64,000 bases of DNA, from the NCBI GenBank assembly GCA_902627735.1, contig CACOKI010000002.1, positions 36,673 to 100,672 of the forward strand. The letters run 5' to 3'. Numbering within the stretch: position 1 is the first letter of the stretch; every line of letters starts with the position of its first letter. The notes below the pieces were generated by a model. That model ran no database searches. It had not been told where the DNA came from and saw only the letters and a program-made list of their open reading frames with translations. This stretch comes from an uncultured Pelagibacteraceae bacterium. Lineage in GTDB: Bacteria > Pseudomonadota > Alphaproteobacteria > Pelagibacterales > Pelagibacteraceae. Below, in pieces: positions 31,043 through 47,341 of the stretch. Both the position numbers and the translations under genes were made by a program.

Positions 31043-32299
31043 ATGCAAAAATACTCAATATTTAGCTTAATTAAAAACGCCTTTTCTAATCATGAAAAAT
31101 GGGATTTGGCTTGGAAAGACCCATCTCCAAAGAAAGAATATGACGTTGTTATAATTGGTGGTGGAGGTCATGGCTTAGCAACAGCTTATTATTTGGCAAA
31201 AGAACACAAAATTACAAATGTAGCTATAATTGAAAAAGGATGGATTGGTGGAGGAAATATTGGAAGAAATACAACAATCATTAGATCAAATTTTATGTAC
31301 GATGATAATGCAAGATTTAATGAGTTTGGAATGAATTTGTGGAGAAATATGAGCCAAGAATTAAATTTTAATGTCATGTTTTCTCCAAGAGGAATAATAA
31401 ATTTAGCTCATTCTGATGCACAAATGAATGCATATGCTCGTAGAGGTAATTCTATGAGATTAAATGGTATTGATGCTGTTTTACTTAACAGGGAAGAAAT
31501 AAAAAAAATTATTCCTATGGCAGATTTTTCTGAGGATGTTAGATATCCAATTTTTGGTGGATTAGCTCAACCTAGCGCTGGCACTGCAAGACATGATGCT
31601 GTTGCGTGGGGATATGCCCGGCAAGCTGATTCAATGGGTGTAGATATTATTCAAAATTGCGAAGTTACTGGGTTTGATGTTTCAGGTGGAAAAATTCAAG
31701 GAGTGAGAACTTCAAGGGGCGATATTAAAACAAAAAAAATTGGTCTTTGTGTAGCTGGCAGTACAAATGTTTTAGCAGAAAAATTAAATATAACATTGCC
31801 GATTGAGACACATCTTTTACAAGCATGTGTTTCTGAACCAGTAAAACCTGTCTTAGATGGGGTAGTAACTTTTGGTGCAGGACATTTTTATATAAGCCAA
31901 TCAGATAAAGGTGAAATGGTAATGGGTGGAGATTTAGATGGATATAACAGTTATGCTCAAAAAGGAAATTTACCAACAATTCAACATGTATTAACTGGTG
32001 GTATAGCATTGTTTCCTTTTTTAAGTAGGTTGAAAATGCTTAGAACATGGGGAGGTATAATGGACATGTCTATGGATGGATCGCCAATAATTGATAAAAC
32101 TCATATTGATGGATTATATTTAAATTGTGGTTGGTGTTATGGAGGATTTAAATCTGTACCATCATCAGGATGGACTTTCGCTCATACTATTGCTCAAGAT
32201 AGAGTACATGAATTAAATGAGGGTTTCAGTTTAAATAGATTTGCAAAAGGATATTTGTTGGACGAAAAGGGACTTGGAACAAAAACTTGGATTTCGTAA
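31043..32299 (+). CDS. soxB: Sarcosine oxidase / N-methylglutamate dehydrogenase beta-type subunit
   Basis: YDVVIIGGGGHGLATAYYLAKEHKITNVAIIEKGWIGGGNIGRNTTIIRSNF; operon soxBDAG. Confidence 0.9.
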   Translation: MQKYSIFSLIKNAFSNHEKWDLAWKDPSPKKEYDVVIIGGGGHGLATAYYLAKEHKITNVAIIEKGWIGGGNIGRNTTIIRSNFMYDDNARFNEFGMNLWRNMSQELNFNVMFSPRGIINLAHSDAQMNAYARRGNSMRLNGIDAVLLNREEIKKIIPMADFSEDVRYPIFGGLAQPSAGTARHDAVAWGYARQADSMGVDIIQNCEVTGFDVSGGKIQGVRTSRGDIKTKKIGLCVAGSTNVLAEKLNITLPIETHLLQACVSEPVKPVLDGVVTFGAGHFYISQSDKGEMVMGGDLDGYNSYAQKGNLPTIQHVLTGGIALFPFLSRLKMLRTWGGIMDMSMDGSPIIDKTHIDGLYLNCGWCYGGFKSVPSSGWTFAHTIAQDRVHELNEGFSLNRFAKGYLLDEKGLGTKTWIS

Positions 32300-32569
32300 A
32301 TGCTTAATATCAATTGTCCCTACTGTGGAGATAGATCTCAAAAAGAATTTGCTTATGGCGGAGATGCAACAGTAAAAAGACCAGAATTAAATAAAGAAGT
32401 GTCAGATGAAAAATGGAATGAATTTATCTATTTAAGAAAAAGTCCAAGAGGAAAACATATTGAGTTATGGCATCATATTGCTGGTTGTAGACAATGGTTT
32501 AAAGTTCAAAGAGATACAGTCACACACGAAATTTTTAAAACTGCAAAAATGAATGAAGAAATAAAATGA
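32300..32569 (+). CDS. soxD: Sarcosine oxidase / NMG dehydrogenase delta-type subunit
   Basis: MLNINCPYCGDRSQKEFAYGGDA...GCRQWFKVQRDTVTHEI; Cys zinc motif. Confidence 0.92.
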   Translation: MLNINCPYCGDRSQKEFAYGGDATVKRPELNKEVSDEKWNEFIYLRKSPRGKHIELWHHIAGCRQWFKVQRDTVTHEIFKTAKMNEEIK

Positions 32570-35562
32570 GTCAGTCATATCGATTAAAAAATGAAGGTTT
32601 AATAAATAGAAATAAAGAAATAATTTTCAAGTTTAATGGAAAAAAATATAAAGGATATGAAGGAGATACTTTAGCTTCAGCTTTACTTGCAAATGGAGTT
32701 CACTTAGTAGGAAGAAGTTTTAAATATCATAGACCAAGAGGTTTCTTTGGTGCGGGCGTTGATGAACCAAACGCGAAGTTGCAAATCCAATTAAATGGTC
32801 ACTCAGAACCTAATGTAAATGCTACAGAATTTGAATTAGTGGAGGGTGTTGAAGCTAGTAGTCAAAACTGCTGGCCTTCAGTAGAATTTGATATAGGAGC
32901 TGTAAATAATTTTTTGAATAGATTTTTTCCTGCTGGTTTTTATTACAAAACATTTATGTGGCCAAAAAGCTTTTGGTATAAAATTTATGAACCATTTATC
33001 AGAAAAGCGGCTGGACTTGGTATTGCATCTGTGGAGAAAGATAAAGAAAGATATGAACATAAATATGAATATTGTGATTTACTTGTTACTGGATCTGGCC
33101 CTGCTGGTTTATCAAGTGCCTATTCAGCTGCAAAGAATGGAGCAAAAGTTATTTTGGCTGAGGATAAACCAAGGTTTGGCGGGTCATTACTAACAGATGA
33201 TGTAACTATAGATAATTTATCAGGTAAAGACTGGGCAGATAAAATTATTACTGAGCTGAAAGAAATGCCTAACGTGATTGTTAAGAATAGATCACAGGTT
33301 TTTGGTTACTATGATCATAATATGATGGTTATGTTTGAAAGAACAGGGGATCATTTGAATGATAAACCTAAATATACTCCAAGACAAAGGTTATGGTATG
33401 TAAGAGCTAAAGAAGTATTGTTGTCCACAGGTTCAATAGAAAGACCGATAGTCTTTGGAAATAATGATACCCCTGGAGTATTTTTATCAGCTGCAGCAAA
33501 AGAATATATAAAAGTTTATGGAGTTTTGGTTGGTAAAAAACCTTTAATATTTACGAATAATGATAGTGCATATGAAACTGCCTTAGAGTTTAAAAAACAA
33601 GGTATTGAACCTATAATTTTAGATACAAGGGAGGAACAATCATCTGAATTAATAAACAGTGCAAAAAATCAAAATATTCAAATAAAATTTTGTCATGCTG
33701 TAATTGCTGCAAACGGATATAAAAAAGTTAGATCGGCACAAATTGGTAAATTGAATAAAGAGAAAACAGGATTTGAAAATATTCAAACTATTGAATGTGA
33801 TTGTATATGTGTATCAGGATTTTGGACTCCAACAGTCCATCTAGCATCACAATCAGGTAATAAACTTAAGTTTAATGATGATATAGATGCTTTTATTCCT
33901 GATAAATCAAAACAAAACGAAAAATCTGTAGGAGCTTCGAATGGAACTTTTACATTAAAGAAAACTTTAGAGGATGGATTTAAAACTGGATTTGAAGTCT
34001 CGAAAAATATAACTAATAATAACATTTCAACCTCAACTCCAAATTCAAATGAAACTAAGAAAAGTGTACATGATAAATTTTGGTGCTCTCCGTTACCTAA
34101 TGGGAAAAACTACAAACGTTTTGTAGATTTTCAAAATGATGTCGCGGTTTCAGATATTGAAGTTGCTTTACGGGAAGGTTATAGATCAATTGAACATGTT
34201 AAAAGATATACAACATTAGGAATGGCAACCGATCAAGGTCGTACTAGTAATCTTAATGGTCTTCAATTGGTTGCAAATGTTGAAAAAAAAATTGTTCCAC
34301 AAGTTGGCCATACAACTTTCAGACCACCATTTACTCCTATTACGATAGGTACAATTGTTGGAAGAGAAATAGATATGGAATATATGCCAACAAGAAAAAC
34401 GCCAATGCACACATGGCATGAAAAAAATAATGCAGTTTTTGTTGATGCGGGTGCTTGGAAGAGACCAAGATATTACAAACAAGGTAATGAGTCTTTATTT
34501 GAGGCTTCGAAAAGAGAAGCAAAAAATGTTAGAGACCATGTAGGTATTTGTGATGTAACTACTTTAGGAAAAATTGATATTAAAGGACCAGACTCAGCAG
34601 AATTTTTAAATAGAGTTTATACCAATGCATGGTTAAAGCTTCCAATTGGTAAAGCAAGATATGGCGTTATGCTGAGAGAAGATGGAATAGTAATGGATGA
34701 TGGAACTACAACTAGAATTTCTGAAAATCACTATCACATGACAACGACAACAGCACAGGCAGCGAATGTGTTGTCTCATTTGGAATATTATCTTCAAATT
34801 GTTTGGCCAGAGTTAAATGTAAACGTTATATCAACAACCGAGCAATGGGCTGGAGCTGCACTTGCAGGCCCTAAATCAAGAGATGTATTAGCAAAATTAT
34901 TTCCTAATCTTGATGTAACTAATGAATCTCTACCATTTATGGGTTACATGGAAGGAGATTTATTTGGTGTAAAAGCAAGAATATTTAGAATTTCATTTTC
35001 AGGAGAGCTTGCATACGAAATTAATGTTGAGTCTGATTACGGTCTTTATATGTGGGAGAAAATGATCGAAATTGGTAAAGAATTTAATATCCAGCCTTAT
35101 GGAACTGAAGCATTATCAACATTAAGAATCGAAATGGGTCATGTAGCTGGACCTGAACTCGATGGAAGAACTATTCCTTATGACGTTTCTTTAGAAGGTT
35201 TACTGTCAAAGAAAAAAGATTTTATTGGTAAAAGGTCTTTGCAAAAAGAAGCATTTAATAAAAATGATAGGCAAAAAATAGTTGGTCTTGTTCCAACAGA
35301 TAAAAAATCTAGTATACCAGAGGGCTCACATTTAGTTTTAGATAAAAATGCCAAACTTCCGAATCCAAAATTAGGACATGTATCTTCATCTTGTTGGAGT
35401 GTAGAAAATAATAATCCTTTTTCTTTGGCAATAGTAAAAGATGGAAAAAATATGATTGGTAAAAAATTATTTGCAGTATCTCCATTAAAAAATACCGCTA
35501 TAGAGGTTGAAATAATCTCTTCTCATTATGTTGATCATGAAGGAAAGAGAGTTAGATCATGA
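32566..35562 (+). CDS. soxA: Sarcosine oxidase / NMG dehydrogenase alpha-type subunit
   Basis: 998 aa; FKYHRPRGFFGAGVDEPNAKLQ, GSGPAGLSSAYSAAKNGAKVILAEDKPRFGGSL, C-terminal GcvT domain. Confidence 0.92.
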   Translation: MSQSYRLKNEGLINRNKEIIFKFNGKKYKGYEGDTLASALLANGVHLVGRSFKYHRPRGFFGAGVDEPNAKLQIQLNGHSEPNVNATEFELVEGVEASSQNCWPSVEFDIGAVNNFLNRFFPAGFYYKTFMWPKSFWYKIYEPFIRKAAGLGIASVEKDKERYEHKYEYCDLLVTGSGPAGLSSAYSAAKNGAKVILAEDKPRFGGSLLTDDVTIDNLSGKDWADKIITELKEMPNVIVKNRSQVFGYYDHNMMVMFERTGDHLNDKPKYTPRQRLWYVRAKEVLLSTGSIERPIVFGNNDTPGVFLSAAAKEYIKVYGVLVGKKPLIFTNNDSAYETALEFKKQGIEPIILDTREEQSSELINSAKNQNIQIKFCHAVIAANGYKKVRSAQIGKLNKEKTGFENIQTIECDCICVSGFWTPTVHLASQSGNKLKFNDDIDAFIPDKSKQNEKSVGASNGTFTLKKTLEDGFKTGFEVSKNITNNNISTSTPNSNETKKSVHDKFWCSPLPNGKNYKRFVDFQNDVAVSDIEVALREGYRSIEHVKRYTTLGMATDQGRTSNLNGLQLVANVEKKIVPQVGHTTFRPPFTPITIGTIVGREIDMEYMPTRKTPMHTWHEKNNAVFVDAGAWKRPRYYKQGNESLFEASKREAKNVRDHVGICDVTTLGKIDIKGPDSAEFLNRVYTNAWLKLPIGKARYGVMLREDGIVMDDGTTTRISENHYHMTTTTAQAANVLSHLEYYLQIVWPELNVNVISTTEQWAGAALAGPKSRDVLAKLFPNLDVTNESLPFMGYMEGDLFGVKARIFRISFSGELAYEINVESDYGLYMWEKMIEIGKEFNIQPYGTEALSTLRIEMGHVAGPELDGRTIPYDVSLEGLLSKKKDFIGKRSLQKEAFNKNDRQKIVGLVPTDKKSSIPEGSHLVLDKNAKLPNPKLGHVSSSCWSVENNNPFSLAIVKDGKNMIGKKLFAVSPLKNTAIEVEIISSHYVDHEGKRVRS

Positions 35563-36143
35563 TGAATATTTCAGCTCTAAACTTTATTCATAAAATTGGA
35601 AAATTTGGCGATCATAATGGAAAAAATGATGAAACTTTATTAAAAGTCTCTGAATTAAATAAATTATTGATATTTCAAATCGCTAAATTTAAAAATTCTG
35701 ATTTTGATATTTCTAAAATAAAAGTAGATGGATTAAATCTTCCATCATCATTAAAATCATCTTCTAATTCGAATACAAGGGTATTATGGTTTGGGCCTGA
35801 CAATTGGTTAGTTTTTTCATCTGATTTAAATTTAATTGAAAAAGAAAAAAAACAATTTAATGAATTAGACTTTGCTATAACTGATATTTCACATTCAAGA
35901 GCTATAATTGAATTAGAAGGAAATTTGGTTAACGAAGTTTTAAAAAAAGGATGTCCTTTGGATATTAATTCTTTTAAAGAAGGTGATTGTGCAAACTCAG
36001 TTTATAACGGAATAACAGTTACAATTGACTTTGTCTCAGATAATCCTAAAAAAGTAAGAATATCTGGTTTAAGAAGTTTTGGTGAATCTCTTCATCACTC
36101 AATTACTGACTCTTGTTTAGAATTTGGATATAAATCAATTTAG
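35559..36143 (+). CDS. soxG: Sarcosine oxidase / NMG dehydrogenase gamma-type subunit
   Basis: Position in soxBDAG; NTRVLWFGPDNWLVFSSD, AITDISHSRAIIELEG. Confidence 0.85.
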   Translation: MMNISALNFIHKIGKFGDHNGKNDETLLKVSELNKLLIFQIAKFKNSDFDISKIKVDGLNLPSSLKSSSNSNTRVLWFGPDNWLVFSSDLNLIEKEKKQFNELDFAITDISHSRAIIELEGNLVNEVLKKGCPLDINSFKEGDCANSVYNGITVTIDFVSDNPKKVRISGLRSFGESLHHSITDSCLEFGYKSI

Positions 36144-41151: not shown

Positions 41152-42117
41152 ATGAAATTTAAAATTGACAATCTGCAGTATTGTAATTGGACAAGAGATG
41201 TATTTCAGATAAATAGAGAAGCAGGTCTTGATGCAGTGCACGTTACAATAGTCTATCATGAAGATTTTAATGAACTTGGCAATCAAATTAAGAAGTGGGA
41301 CAACTTATTTAAAGATAATTCAGATCTAATATTTCAAGGTAAAAATTTTAAAGACATAGAAAAAGCAAACAATGAAAAAAAAACAGCTATTTTTTTTGGT
41401 TTTCAAAATTGTTCTCCTATTGAAGATGACATCAATCTAGTTGAGAAAGTTCATGAATTAGGGTGTCGATTTATGCAATTAACTTATAACAATCAATCAT
41501 TATTAGCTACGGGTTGTTATGAAAAAATAGATAGTGGTGTTACAAATTTTGGTAGAGAGGTAATAAAAGAAATGAATAGAGTAGGCGTTGTAGTTGACAT
41601 GTCTCATTCAGCTGAGAAGAGCACCTTTGATGCTATTGATCTTAGCGAAAAACCTATTGCGATAACACATGCCAACCCTTCATTTTGGCATCCAGCCAAA
41701 AGAAATAAATCCTCGGAATTACTAAAAGTTCTAAGTGAAAGTGGTGGAATATTAGGATTGTCTTTATATCCTCATCACTTAAAAAATAACACAAACTGTA
41801 CCATTGAAAGTTTTTGTGAAATGGTTGCTAGAACAGCAGAGATAATGAATATCAAAAATATTGGAATAGGATCTGATCTTTGCTTGAACCAACCAGATAA
41901 CGTTGTTGAATGGATGAGAAATGGAACATGGTCGAAAAAAAAAAATTATGGAGAGGGTACTAAGAATAAACCTGGTTTTCCAAAACAACCAGAATGGTTT
42001 GAAGATGCTAGAGGTTTTGTAAATATAGAAAAAGGATTAAGAAAAATAGGTTTTAAAGAAACGGAAATTGACGGAATACTTGGTAATAATTGGTATAACT
42101 TTTATAAGATAATTTAA
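41152..42117 (+). CDS. Membrane (renal) dipeptidase-like M19 metallohydrolase
   Basis: LGCRFMQLTYNNQS, GVVVDMSHSAEKSTFDAIDLSEKPIAITHANP, NIGIGSDLC. Confidence 0.88.
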   Translation: MKFKIDNLQYCNWTRDVFQINREAGLDAVHVTIVYHEDFNELGNQIKKWDNLFKDNSDLIFQGKNFKDIEKANNEKKTAIFFGFQNCSPIEDDINLVEKVHELGCRFMQLTYNNQSLLATGCYEKIDSGVTNFGREVIKEMNRVGVVVDMSHSAEKSTFDAIDLSEKPIAITHANPSFWHPAKRNKSSELLKVLSESGGILGLSLYPHHLKNNTNCTIESFCEMVARTAEIMNIKNIGIGSDLCLNQPDNVVEWMRNGTWSKKKNYGEGTKNKPGFPKQPEWFEDARGFVNIEKGLRKIGFKETEIDGILGNNWYNFYKII

Positions 42118-42119
42118 GC

Positions 42120-43781
42120 ATGGAAATAGAATTAAGAGATCCTAATATAATCATGAAACTTTCAAGGCTAGGATCTTTTCATCAGTCTAAATTATCATTT
42201 CTGAGAAGTTTTTTATCTGAATTTAAAGATTGGGAATATAAAAGAGATTTATTTGATTTAGATAAAAATGGATTTGGTGTTGCAGTTTATTCATTTAAAA
42301 AAAAAGATAGAGTTTATTCTTTAATATGTTTTGCAAATAAAATTCAGGATGATGAAAGATCAGATCGAGTAATTGCTACAAAATGGGATGCAGCTTTTAC
42401 TTTATATGATGGTATTCCAAGTAATAAAGATATTGAAAGGTTAAAACAGGAAGTACCTAAACAAGAAGTTGGTAGATTGTCTTACAAGGAATTAACTTTA
42501 TCGAGAGCAAATAAATCAGTAAGAGTTTTTGATCATGTTGTAGAAAGTTTAAGTAATGGCAAACAACCAAATTTAGATTTATTAGAAAAAGTTGGTTATC
42601 TTTATAGAACAACTGCGGTTTACGGTTCTGGTAAATTTGGACTTGCAGATCGTTTTAGAATAAAAAACAGGGAAGAAATTAATGGTCCATTTAGATTAGA
42701 AATGATGCTAGTCTACCTGGTAAGACAATTTACTTTCGATCAAGTTAACCATGTAGCTCAAAATAAGAACCCAGAAAAAGCTGTTAAACTTGATGCTAAA
42801 ATTTGTAAAAATCTTGGTATTGGAAATTCGACAGGCTTAGGAATGGCTCCATTTATAGTTAATCATCCAACCTTATTGAATAATTGGATAATGAGTAGAG
42901 AAAAAGCACTAAAAAAAATTAGAGAAATTAAAAAAATAGATCAACAAGATAGCGATTTATTTAAACAATGTTTAAGAAATTCAATTAAAAATATAACAAG
43001 TTGGAATACTGAAAGTGAATATCAGTTAAAAAAGATAAAAGATTTATTAAATGATTTAAAAAAATTTTTAGATTTCATTGAGACAAAGTTTGATTTTGAA
43101 ATAGATTATGCATTTAATCAATTATATTTGTGGGTTGAGAAAGAAACTTGCGAAGAATGTATAGAATTTATTGTTTCCCTTATGATGGAACCATACAACA
43201 AAATTATCGCACCACTTGTAAAACAAATGAGTTCTGAAGAGGATAAGTATTTCACAATACCTACAAATAGAAAAGTTCAGGAATTAAAACTCATAATTGA
43301 TTCAAAATATTCAAATATTTTATCTGTTGATTTTGAAAAAAAACAAAATTATAAAAAATTTTGGTTTATTTCAAAAAATAAAGAAGAGCCTAGAATTGCT
43401 GATAGATTTGAAGAAAAGGGATGTGAATTAGAACAACCACTTGCAATCGCTAGGGATATAAAAAAACTATACGAAAAATTATTAATTACAAAAAAAGATA
43501 TGAAAATTGATAAATTTCTAAGTGAAAATGCAGATTTAAGACATGTAGTTAGAAGAGCTTTTATAATTGAAAAATTTCCTTATTCTGAAATCCAGGACAA
43601 TACAATTAGTCAAAATACGATTCCAATAGATATGTTAAGATTAAAACTATCTTTTTTTGGTGCATTAAAATTTGATCCCCGGTCTGATAAATGGCTTAGA
43701 ATATGCATGTTTCAGGGTGCACCATTACCCAATGAATTAAAAAATTATGATGACCATTGGGTTTATAAAATAAACTCTTAA
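42120..43781 (+). CDS. 553-aa protein of unknown function
   Basis: Long intact ORF 2 nt after the dipeptidase; no recognisable catalytic motif; SNGKQPNLDLLEKVGYLYRTTAVYGSGKFGLADR and others. Confidence 0.85.
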   Translation: MEIELRDPNIIMKLSRLGSFHQSKLSFLRSFLSEFKDWEYKRDLFDLDKNGFGVAVYSFKKKDRVYSLICFANKIQDDERSDRVIATKWDAAFTLYDGIPSNKDIERLKQEVPKQEVGRLSYKELTLSRANKSVRVFDHVVESLSNGKQPNLDLLEKVGYLYRTTAVYGSGKFGLADRFRIKNREEINGPFRLEMMLVYLVRQFTFDQVNHVAQNKNPEKAVKLDAKICKNLGIGNSTGLGMAPFIVNHPTLLNNWIMSREKALKKIREIKKIDQQDSDLFKQCLRNSIKNITSWNTESEYQLKKIKDLLNDLKKFLDFIETKFDFEIDYAFNQLYLWVEKETCEECIEFIVSLMMEPYNKIIAPLVKQMSSEEDKYFTIPTNRKVQELKLIIDSKYSNILSVDFEKKQNYKKFWFISKNKEEPRIADRFEEKGCELEQPLAIARDIKKLYEKLLITKKDMKIDKFLSENADLRHVVRRAFIIEKFPYSEIQDNTISQNTIPIDMLRLKLSFFGALKFDPRSDKWLRICMFQGAPLPNELKNYDDHWVYKINS

Positions 43782-43784
43782 GTT

Positions 43785-44396
43785 ATGAAATCTCTTAGTG
43801 AAATAGAAACTACATCAAAAAGAGCAACTAGAGCAGCTGGATTTTCATGGGGTGTTTCTGAAGAAGTTGGGAAATGTATTAGATTACTAGAACTTTTTGG
43901 TCTTCCTGGCATAAAAAATTTAAATTCTTATTTTAATGAAAAAAAATTAAATAACTTTGAAGATTTAAAATTGATTAGTAAAGAAAATCAACCTAAAAAA
44001 AATATATTTTGCCCAATAAATCTTGGAGTAAGTTTTTTAGACCAAATTAGAACTTTAGAAACATTCAAGCATTGTTCATTTAAAGATATCGCCTATCCAA
44101 TTTTGTTTTTACCTTTTTTAAGTAGGGCTTCAGAGGTGATTGGAAAAAAAATTATTTTTAATTTTGATAAAAATCAATTTTTATTGAATTTTAATACAAG
44201 TATCTCATCAAATTTTACTCAAGAACAATGCCCTTTAATAGCGAAAGATATAAAAATTAATTTTTTAGATAATAAAGATAACTTTAGTGAATTAGAATGG
44301 ATAAATCTTTACAAACTTTCTGAAGAAACCTTTGTTGAAGAAACAGATAGTTTAAAACAAGGTGCTGCTGGAGCTGGATTAACTGATAATGATTGA
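43785..44396 (+). CDS. DUF3726-like protein
   Basis: MKSLSEIETTSKRATRAAGFSWGVSEEVGKCIRLLELFGLPGI N-terminal signature; 203 aa. Confidence 0.75.
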   Translation: MKSLSEIETTSKRATRAAGFSWGVSEEVGKCIRLLELFGLPGIKNLNSYFNEKKLNNFEDLKLISKENQPKKNIFCPINLGVSFLDQIRTLETFKHCSFKDIAYPILFLPFLSRASEVIGKKIIFNFDKNQFLLNFNTSISSNFTQEQCPLIAKDIKINFLDNKDNFSELEWINLYKLSEETFVEETDSLKQGAAGAGLTDND

Positions 44397-44550
44397 GGAT
44401 GAAGATTTAAAAGAAAAAGATCTGAAGGAATTAGATAATATATGTGATGAATGTAAAGAAAAAGATGAGAGCGTTTCTCAAAATTTGATTTTAACAGGTT
44501 TTAAGATTTGCAAATCTTGCAGAGTATCAAAGACTATATTTCCAATTTAG
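44389..44550 (+). CDS. 53-aa double-CxxC (zinc-ribbon-like) peptide
   Basis: Not in ORF track; MIEDEDLKEKDLKELDNICDECKEKDESVSQNLILTGFKICKSCRVSKTIFPI; overlaps the previous stop by 8 nt. Confidence 0.6.
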   Translation: MIEDEDLKEKDLKELDNICDECKEKDESVSQNLILTGFKICKSCRVSKTIFPI

Positions 44551-45113
44551 CTTATAACACCATTTGCACCTTGAAATAGTGAAAGTATATACAAAAAGAA
44601 AATAATCTGAGGAGCTAAAGAAATTAATGTGGTTTTAAAATAATTATCATAATTCAAAATTATATTTAAACCAATAATTAATGAAATATTATACCATACG
44701 TATGAAATTAGAATAAAAAATAAAAACACTTGATTAATTACAATAAAATTTAGAAGTAACGGAGATTGTGCAAAAGCAACTAAAATAATAATTTTTCTAA
44801 AATTACAATTAGTTTTTTTATTTGGAAATAAAGTTACTCCAACAAAATACAAATAAGTTGTTTTTAGAACCCACATTATAAAAGAAGACAACATTACAGC
44901 TTTTAAAGTTGGTCCTTTAATTACTCCCAGATTAAAATTAAGATTCATGTAGTTGAGGAAAGAACTATTAGGTATAATACTTATGATTGATCCAAGTAAA
45001 ATAATTAAGATTGCATAATAAATAGATGCTTCACCAAAGTTTTTATTATCTTTATAGAGTGATTTATCTAATTTAATTGATCTTAATATTATACTTAAAA
45101 ATTCTGCTAACAT
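44547..45113 (-). CDS. Yip1-like multi-pass membrane protein
   Basis: 188 aa, five hydrophobic segments; architecture recalls Yip1-domain proteins. Confidence 0.65.
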   Translation of the reverse strand: MLAEFLSIILRSIKLDKSLYKDNKNFGEASIYYAILIILLGSIISIIPNSSFLNYMNLNFNLGVIKGPTLKAVMLSSFIMWVLKTTYLYFVGVTLFPNKKTNCNFRKIIILVAFAQSPLLLNFIVINQVFLFFILISYVWYNISLIIGLNIILNYDNYFKTTLISLAPQIIFFLYILSLFQGANGVIS

Positions 45114-45261: not shown

Positions 45262-46620
45262 TTAACCTTTAACAACTTCTCTAGTATTAGCGTTGAAAGA
45301 CTCTTTAAATGGTATATCTACTATTACAGCATCTACAGGTTTGCCTGGAGTCTCCGAGTATTTTTCAGGTAAATGAACTTTATATTTTGTTCCAACTTTA
45401 CCTTTTGGAAACCCATTGGCGTTTAATGTTCCATCAAAAGGCACATAACCCATAGCAATATTTGTTTTTTTCTCTGGGTGATACCAAGGTGACGTTACAA
45501 AACCTATTGGATCACCACCGTTTGCGCCTGAAATTAACCAAAAATCTGGTGCATAGTCCTCAATTGGTTTTCCACCAAGTTCGAAACCAACTAATTGTAA
45601 TTTGTATGGTTTTTTACCATCTTTCAGTTCTTTACCCATTTTTTCTAATGCAGCCTTACCAACATAATCACCTTTTTTATTCCATTCTCCTTTTCCAGAT
45701 AAAGAAACTTGATAACCTAAATTACATTGAAAAGGATTATGTTGCTGATCCATGTCTTGTCCCCAAGAAAGAATTCCAGCTTGAATTCTTCTGTGGTGCG
45801 CTGGCGCAATAACCATAAGTTTATGTTTTTTTCCGGCTTCAAGAACTGCATTCCACATATCTTCTGCATATAGAGTAGCATTTCTTAAATAAATTTCATA
45901 TCCAGCCTCTCCTGAAAAGCCTGATTGTGAAATTACACAACTTCTTCCTCCAACCTTCACCTCTGCTAAACCATAGAAAGGCATGTTATCAAAATCAACT
46001 TGATCTCCACATAAATCTTTCATTAAAGCTTTTGATTTAGGACCTTGAATTTGAACAGGACATGCATCTATTTCTTCGACTGTGCAATTAAATCTACCAT
46101 CAGCATTAACACCTTGAAGATACATTCCAATGTCAGAGTCTGATAAAGAAAACCAAAACTCATCTTTTGAGATTCTCAAAAGAATTGGATCATTTAAAAC
46201 GCCTCCATATGCATTACATAGGATTACGTATCTTGCTCGCATTGGTGAAATTTTTGTAGCATCTCTAGTTATGACATAATCAACAAATTTTTCTGCATCT
46301 GGACCTTTAACCTGGATTTGTCTTTCAACAGCAACGTTCCACATTGTTACATGATTTACGATTGCATCATATTCCACCATTGCTCCACCATCTTCAGGTT
46401 TTACATAACCCCTTGGATGATAAATTCGATTGTATACAGTTGCTCTCCAACAACCTGCCTGCATTGATAAATGCCAATAAGGCGATTTTCTTACCCTTGT
46501 TGAAATTAACATTTCAACTTTAGTCGGCCCACTTTGTCTTAAATTGTATGGTACTTTCCGATCTGATTGATCAACAGAAGTAACATGTTTTAGTTTAGTA
46601 TAGTCAAATTCTTTAGACAT
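45262..46620 (-). CDS. DmdA-like GcvT-fold aminomethyltransferase/demethylase
   Basis: Track ORF 45262..46626 (MVMSKEF; inner Met 46620); ISTRVRKSPYWHLSMQAGCWRATVYNRIYHPRGY...YDAIVNHVTMWNVAVERQIQVKGPDAEKFVDYVITRD; SWGQDMDQQHNPFQCNLG. Confidence 0.82.
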   Translation of the reverse strand: MSKEFDYTKLKHVTSVDQSDRKVPYNLRQSGPTKVEMLISTRVRKSPYWHLSMQAGCWRATVYNRIYHPRGYVKPEDGGAMVEYDAIVNHVTMWNVAVERQIQVKGPDAEKFVDYVITRDATKISPMRARYVILCNAYGGVLNDPILLRISKDEFWFSLSDSDIGMYLQGVNADGRFNCTVEEIDACPVQIQGPKSKALMKDLCGDQVDFDNMPFYGLAEVKVGGRSCVISQSGFSGEAGYEIYLRNATLYAEDMWNAVLEAGKKHKLMVIAPAHHRRIQAGILSWGQDMDQQHNPFQCNLGYQVSLSGKGEWNKKGDYVGKAALEKMGKELKDGKKPYKLQLVGFELGGKPIEDYAPDFWLISGANGGDPIGFVTSPWYHPEKKTNIAMGYVPFDGTLNANGFPKGKVGTKYKVHLPEKYSETPGKPVDAVIVDIPFKESFNANTREVVKG

Positions 46621-47341
46621 AACCATTCTCCTTCAACCACTTGTTAGTTTCCTTCAAGCCGCCGAATGTATAAATGTGGAAGAAATCAGTATGCGATTTA
46701 ACTTTCCCAATTAAATCATTAGGGTCTTTAGGTTTCAATAAATCTAATGCCTTATTAAAATTAGACTTAAGAAAGTTAATGGAATTTTTTGCTCCAACAA
46801 TATTAGCAAATTTAATCAAGCTTGATATTTTTAGAGGTCCAGTAATTCCAACATGCACTGGTACGCTTTGTTTAGAAATAAAATCTATGATAGGCTGAGG
46901 ATCTAATAACCACTGGGTTACAATATAGTCAGCATAAGGCTTTTTATCTTTCATAGCTTTTTCTAAATCTGAGTCGGATATATCAGGACTCCCCTCTGGG
47001 TGTCCAGCAATTCCTATTGTCATCTTCTCAAAATAACCAGTTTCTAAAAGTTGAAATGAGCTATCAAATTTACCAAGAGGCTCCCTTCCTCCACCAATTA
47101 TTAGAACCTGTTTAACTCCTCCATCTTTGCACCTTGATACGTAATCTTTTAGCTGTTTTTCATCATGCATTGATCTGGCAGGAAAATGAGGTACTGGATT
47201 AAAACCTTTTTTAACCAACTCAACTGCTTGTTGAGCCGTTTCTTTGTAGTCTCCTCCAGGCAACATTGTGATGTAAATATCATTTACTGGTGGTACTGTT
47301 GATAGGTCGGTTTGGGGACCAATTTCCAAAGAAAATTTCAT
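46613..47341 (-). CDS. metF: Methylenetetrahydrofolate reductase-like protein
   Basis: FSLEIGPQTD..., PVPHFPARSMHDEKQLKDYVSRCKDGGVKQVLIIGGGREPLGKFDSSFQLLETGYFEKMTIGIAGHPEGSPD. Confidence 0.82.
   Translation of the reverse strand: MKFSLEIGPQTDLSTVPPVNDIYITMLPGGDYKETAQQAVELVKKGFNPVPHFPARSMHDEKQLKDYVSRCKDGGVKQVLIIGGGREPLGKFDSSFQLLETGYFEKMTIGIAGHPEGSPDISDSDLEKAMKDKKPYADYIVTQWLLDPQPIIDFISKQSVPVHVGITGPLKISSLIKFANIVGAKNSINFLKSNFNKALDLLKPKDPNDLIGKVKSHTDFFHIYTFGGLKETNKWLKENGYV

Follow-up and report, generated by a model that had tools for sequence, protein, structure and literature searches.

A conserved four-gene SAR11 operon with an M19-fold protein, an orphan protein and DUF3726: probable link to the catabolism of homarine or a related N-methylated betaine

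Introduction

An operon for the breakdown of homarine (N-methylpicolinate), named homABCDER and made up of five genes and a regulator, was reportedly described in Rhodobacterales and SAR11 by Ferrer-Gonzalez et al. in 2026 (Nat Microbiol 11:1531). Our literature search did not find the term 'homABCDER'. The reported five genes and regulator would correspond to a LysR gene plus ALDH-M19-553-DUF3726-Ldh, and the reported link to N-methylglutamate dehydrogenase may be shared by SoxBDAG-linked Roseobacter operons. The Pseudomonas dgcAB locus resembles the operon studied here in its methylated-amine setting and in its M19 protein, PA5396, which belongs to the same subtype and is encoded next to the dgcAB and etf genes; we know of no 553-aa or DUF3726 partner at that locus. 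The reference enzyme for the M19 fold, human renal dipeptidase, binds two zincs through H20, D22, E125, H198 and H219.

In R. pomeroyi, the AraC-type regulator TmaR is encoded beside mgdABCD, and Mgd takes part in homarine catabolism according to a 2026 report cited there (PMC13390433). Homarine is consumed rapidly by R. pomeroyi (PMC12817926); within Ruegeria, the operon was seen here in Ruegeria sp. TM1040.

Results

The window, by which we mean the whole 64,000-nt stretch of DNA that was analyzed, comes from a SAR11 (Pelagibacteraceae) host with a genome of 1.03 Mb, and its best 80 relatives in the genome collection were all Pelagibacteraceae/Pelagibacterales. The features under discussion are:

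31043..36143, + strand: SoxBDAG, sarcosine oxidase/N-methylglutamate dehydrogenase family (soxB and soxA NCBIfam models)
41152..42117, + strand: M19-family (renal-dipeptidase-fold) protein, 321 aa (Pfam PF01244)
42120..43781, + strand: 553-aa orphan without family or fold match
43785..44396, + strand: DUF3726 protein, 203 aa (PF12525)
44389..44550, + strand: 53-aa double-CxxC peptide (CDEC...CKSC), an ORF kept in SAR11 loci

The ORF list places all four operon genes on the + strand within 41152-44550, with ATG as the start codon of each of the three larger ones. The junctions (2 nt between M19 and 553-aa, 3 nt between 553-aa and DUF3726, and an 8-nt overlap between DUF3726 and the 53-aa gene) agree exactly with those in a preliminary description of this DNA. 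That description had proposed a single operon, which is borne out by tblastn: the M19, 553-aa and DUF3726 genes were adjacent and in the same order in 80/80 SAR11 loci examined, so that the arrangement is not due to chance, and the 53-aa peptide was present in 74 of the 80. All four products are conserved, as their identities to the window proteins stay high across the SAR11 loci (74-91% for M19, 68-91% for the 553-aa protein, 50-84% for DUF3726 and 56-91% for the peptide). A convergent ORF of 188 aa, resembling a membrane protein (44547-45113, - strand), overlaps the 3′ end of the 53-aa gene by 4 nt. The peptide itself had no family match in Pfam or NCBIfam, and a LysW-like carrier role was rejected for lack of an EDWGE-type end.

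The M19 protein matched PF01244 with 239 bits (cut-off 26), and its closest solved structure is 2i5g, presumably Pseudomonas PA5396, whose gene lies next to dgcAB. Residues H198, H219, R230 and D288 of the renal dipeptidase structure 1itq are kept as H152, H173, R184 and D242; H20, D22 and E125 are replaced by L8, Y10 and Q85, the HxD correspondence having been aligned by eye. Three of the five metal ligands are therefore missing, and aligned orthologues agree. Thus, the window protein shares the fold of peptidase family M19 but lacks its canonical binuclear zinc site, and as judged from sequence it is an M19 protein by fold that fails the defining metal site; 2i5g is like it in that HxD is absent and E125 is replaced by Gln. 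The preliminary description had called the gene product an M19 dipeptidase: the family assignment stands, whereas ordinary dipeptidase chemistry is doubtful because of the missing ligands.

No match above cut-off was found for the 553-aa protein in Pfam or NCBIfam, and no meaningful match among PDB sequences. Its structure model (pLDDT 75), built like the other models from SAR11 sequences only, gave no significant match in a fold search; a new fold does not follow from this, since the model is weakest (pLDDT < 50) in the most conserved loops. Matches to FlaG, spectrin and tropomyosin were discarded as helix/coiled-coil noise. The preliminary description, too, had named no catalytic motif in it. 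Roughly 45 polar residues, with Arg prominent among them, are near-invariant in the family, which suggests that the protein acts on or with an anionic substrate or cofactor. Identity is 38-47% over Alphaproteobacteria outside the closest groups, and 44-47% between the clade of the window protein and the Roseobacter versions.

The 203-aa partner had been described as DUF3726-like, and its PF12525 score (78.4 bits vs a cut-off of 22.1) leaves that assignment in place. DUF3726 occurred in 32/289 alphaproteobacterial genomes, in all 32 directly behind the 553-aa gene, and a single fused protein carries both in Mesorhizobium sp. 131-2-1. Its AF2 model (pLDDT 88, last ten residues disordered) gave Foldseek matches of which the top 21 all belong to the Ldh_2 family, with probabilities of 0.80-1.00 but E values of 0.013-0.24 and TM scores of 0.41-0.55. 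Comparison with the Ldh of the larger operons by hhalign, in which the N-terminal helices align, gave P=3e-4 and a probability of 40%. The models thus make homology to Ldh_2 (type II malate/lactate dehydrogenase) likely, not proven. The predicted fold of DUF3726 is probably that of YiaK, AllD and DpkA, but these Ldh_2 enzymes are about 340 aa long, whereas DUF3726 is shortened, has no Ldh_2 Pfam match, is not a full-length NAD(P)-dependent enzyme and ends in a conserved C-terminal tail. This tail, GAGLTDND (GAGAGLTDND), is nearly invariant over its last ten residues in SAR11; a pattern search of 93 loci found an ORF after the 553-aa gene, or a fused end, with a Gly-Ala-rich tail, typically SRLxGAGAGLSDND, in 85. 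In a gammaproteobacterial locus (L258), two DUF3726-like ORFs stand in tandem behind the 553-aa gene. Our literature search found no mention of DUF3726.

Among sampled genomes, the 553-aa family was detected in 39/289 from Alphaproteobacteria, 134/298 from a Rhodobacteraceae-type family (f23), 45/147 from Pelagibacteraceae and nine from beyond Alphaproteobacteria. Plasmid holders of the gene include Phaeobacter, Sinorhizobium, Mesorhizobium, Aminobacter, Vibrio and Caballeronia, and several Rhodobacteraceae have two paralogues; in viral contigs, 14 pattern matches yielded 0 relatives. The M19 gene is a partner of the orphan and DUF3726 genes in both Alpha- and Gammaproteobacteria, so that the grouping proposed from the single locus holds elsewhere. 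Outside SAR11 the consensus operon is LysR-ALDH-M19-[BCCT]-553-DUF3726-Ldh with BCCT or ProXWV genes attached. Over 93 loci, partners were M19 (85), ALDH (51), Ldh (41), LysR (38), BCCT (19) and ProX (12); RidA (imine/enamine) genes were found in 13 and SoxA in 7 only. The best PDB match of the operon Ldh is 1wtj, a delta1-piperideine-2-carboxylate reductase (DpkA), and enzymes of the DpkA type catalyze the reduction of cyclic imines and also form N-methyl amino acids. The best NCBIfam model for the operon ALDH is 2,5-dioxovalerate dehydrogenase, below the model cut-off.

SoxBDAG and an AraC-type regulator adjoin the operon in Ruegeria sp. TM1040, Phaeobacter gallaeciensis DSM 26640 and Aliiroseovarius crassostreae, forming an island of SoxBDAG, AraC-type regulator, LysR, ALDH, M19, 553, DUF3726, Ldh and BCCT; the TM1040 regulator also bears a DJ-1/PfpI domain. 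The pairing of SoxBDAG with an AraC-type regulator recalls that of mgdABCD with TmaR in R. pomeroyi (PMC13390433). NCBIfam models do not separate Mgd from sarcosine oxidase, nor the operon-side SoxBDAG sets from true sarcosine oxidases. Operon-side SoxB and SoxA of TM1040 are 67-69% and 55-56% identical to the paralogue beside glutamate dehydrogenase, and about 49% and about 44% identical to a third paralogue, a likeness that fits glutamate as the product and does not prove it. A distant 553-aa version (24% identity) lies on Sinorhizobium meliloti pSymB (L116, 9944-20744; also L256 and L267), next to genes for M19, a PotF-type ABC importer, an aminotransferase, an SSADH-like ALDH and two RidA proteins; this may be a related pathway that acts on a different substrate.

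Neighborhoods in SAR11 were counted over 49 loci with long flanks. Matches to purE, purK and the SoxA family were near the operon in 49/49, SoxG in 44/49 and a DmdA-like match in 48/49. In the window, SoxBDAG lies 5 kb upstream of the operon, its SoxA being the sole full-length SoxA match in the host genome, and DMGDH and ETF genes lie 8 kb away. Downstream of the operon, 45262-47341 (- strand) encodes a DmdA-like GcvT protein (228 bits vs a DmdA cut-off of 410) and then a 242-aa MTHFR-like protein, possibly a methyl-transfer pair; their median identities across SAR11 loci (92% and 88%) are above the operon's own. The ALDH, Ldh and transporter genes are not linked to the operon in SAR11. Among genomes at least 90% complete, an Ldh gene was present elsewhere in 21/22 SAR11 genomes with the operon and 2/31 without it, a co-occurrence confounded by descent because the 22 are all one genus.

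Discussion

Taken together, these findings suggest that a pyridinium or ring betaine is converted to N-methylglutamate, with an aldehyde and then an N-methyl imine as intermediates. The link to betaines or quaternary amines drawn in the preliminary description is upheld by the BCCT and ProXWV transporters and by the SoxBDAG and DMGDH neighbors. We favor, with some reserve, the reading that the operon encodes the central part of a route for breaking down an N-methylated betaine, homarine being the likeliest, with N-methylglutamate and glutamate as end products; homarine as the substrate fits the chemistry and the literature. LysR and five structural genes stand in one operon in the Roseobacter relatives and not in the SAR11 window, which would differ from homABCDER in having only M19, 553 and DUF3726 together with the 53-aa peptide. 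The window operon is probably a reduced SAR11 member of the recently described homarine system, and we infer its identity with the homABCDER operon. Calling it an undescribed system, as had been done at the outset, is probably out of date, since a 2026 publication, cited in PMC13390433, describes a pathway of homarine catabolism.

The sequence of steps that follows is hypothetical, as is the reaction assigned to the 553-aa protein. The substrate would be imported via a BCCT or ProXWV-type transporter, and the 553-aa protein, in complex with DUF3726, would attack and open the methylpyridinium ring. The resulting aldehyde would be oxidized by the 2,5-dioxovalerate dehydrogenase-like ALDH, and the M19-fold enzyme would act on an intermediate that is an amide, an enamine or a ring-opened compound. 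The Ldh-family enzyme would then reduce an N-methyl imine to N-methyl-L-glutamate, from which a SoxBDAG-family N-methylglutamate dehydrogenase would yield glutamate, with ring carbons C2 to C5 of homarine presumably becoming the glutamate chain. In SAR11, an ALDH, a reductase and a transporter would be supplied from elsewhere, as their genes are not in the operon. The window SoxBDAG is a possible downstream step of this pathway; it may instead serve glycine betaine catabolism. The core operon contains no recognizable oxygenase or flavoprotein, so that ring opening rests wholly on the uncharacterized 553-aa protein, the presumed central catalyst, and the role of the 553-DUF3726 pair in it is assigned by elimination only. 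We tentatively entertain the bolder idea that the pair is a two-subunit enzyme of new fold and new chemistry that opens the N-methylpyridinium ring without a recognizable oxygenase, DUF3726 being a dehydrogenase relative that was shortened and co-opted, its tail extending into the active site of the 553-aa protein.

The same logic could apply to another N-methylated betaine or pyridinium compound, such as trigonelline or the betaine of proline or pipecolate, the 553-aa family having diverged according to substrate. Transporters vary between loci (BCCT, ProXWV, and the PotF-type importer of the pSymB version), which makes it probable that the family acts on more than a single substrate, and the paralogue pairs of Rhodobacteraceae point the same way. 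For the window itself we regard this as rather unlikely, since its clade shares M19, DUF3726 and 44-47% identity with the Roseobacter versions that carry ALDH, Ldh, BCCT and SoxBDAG-AraC.

Given that the M19 fold is certain, a true dipeptidase operon might also be considered, in which M19 cleaves an N-methylated or otherwise modified dipeptide from seawater and the other genes assist. The loss of metal ligands in the window protein and its orthologues makes this improbable, as do partners that are an ALDH, an imine-reductase-like Ldh and betaine transporters rather than peptide transporters. A further suggestion of the preliminary description was that the genes serve to mature an amine dehydrogenase; the CxxC peptide could then act as a helper for metal or redox chemistry. 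This would account for SoxBDAG and DMGDH nearby in SAR11 and for the conservation of the small peptide there. We give it very little credence: most relatives keep the operon apart from amine dehydrogenases, and its neighbors form a pathway that brings an ALDH, a reductase, a regulator and an importer of its own, which argues that the operon is catabolic and not related to maturation.

The enzymology of the favored pathway for homarine or a similar betaine is still strange, combining an orphan core protein, a dehydrogenase-like partner with a conserved tail and a dipeptidase fold that lacks its metal site. The 553-aa protein represents a widespread, highly conserved family that matches neither a family model nor a fold; because it pairs exclusively with DUF3726, its chemistry can be tested directly. 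SAR11 bacteria are among the most abundant marine cell lineages, and homarine is one of the osmolytes that make up a large labile pool of carbon and nitrogen. If the homarine assignment is true, these four genes would mark who can eat homarine.
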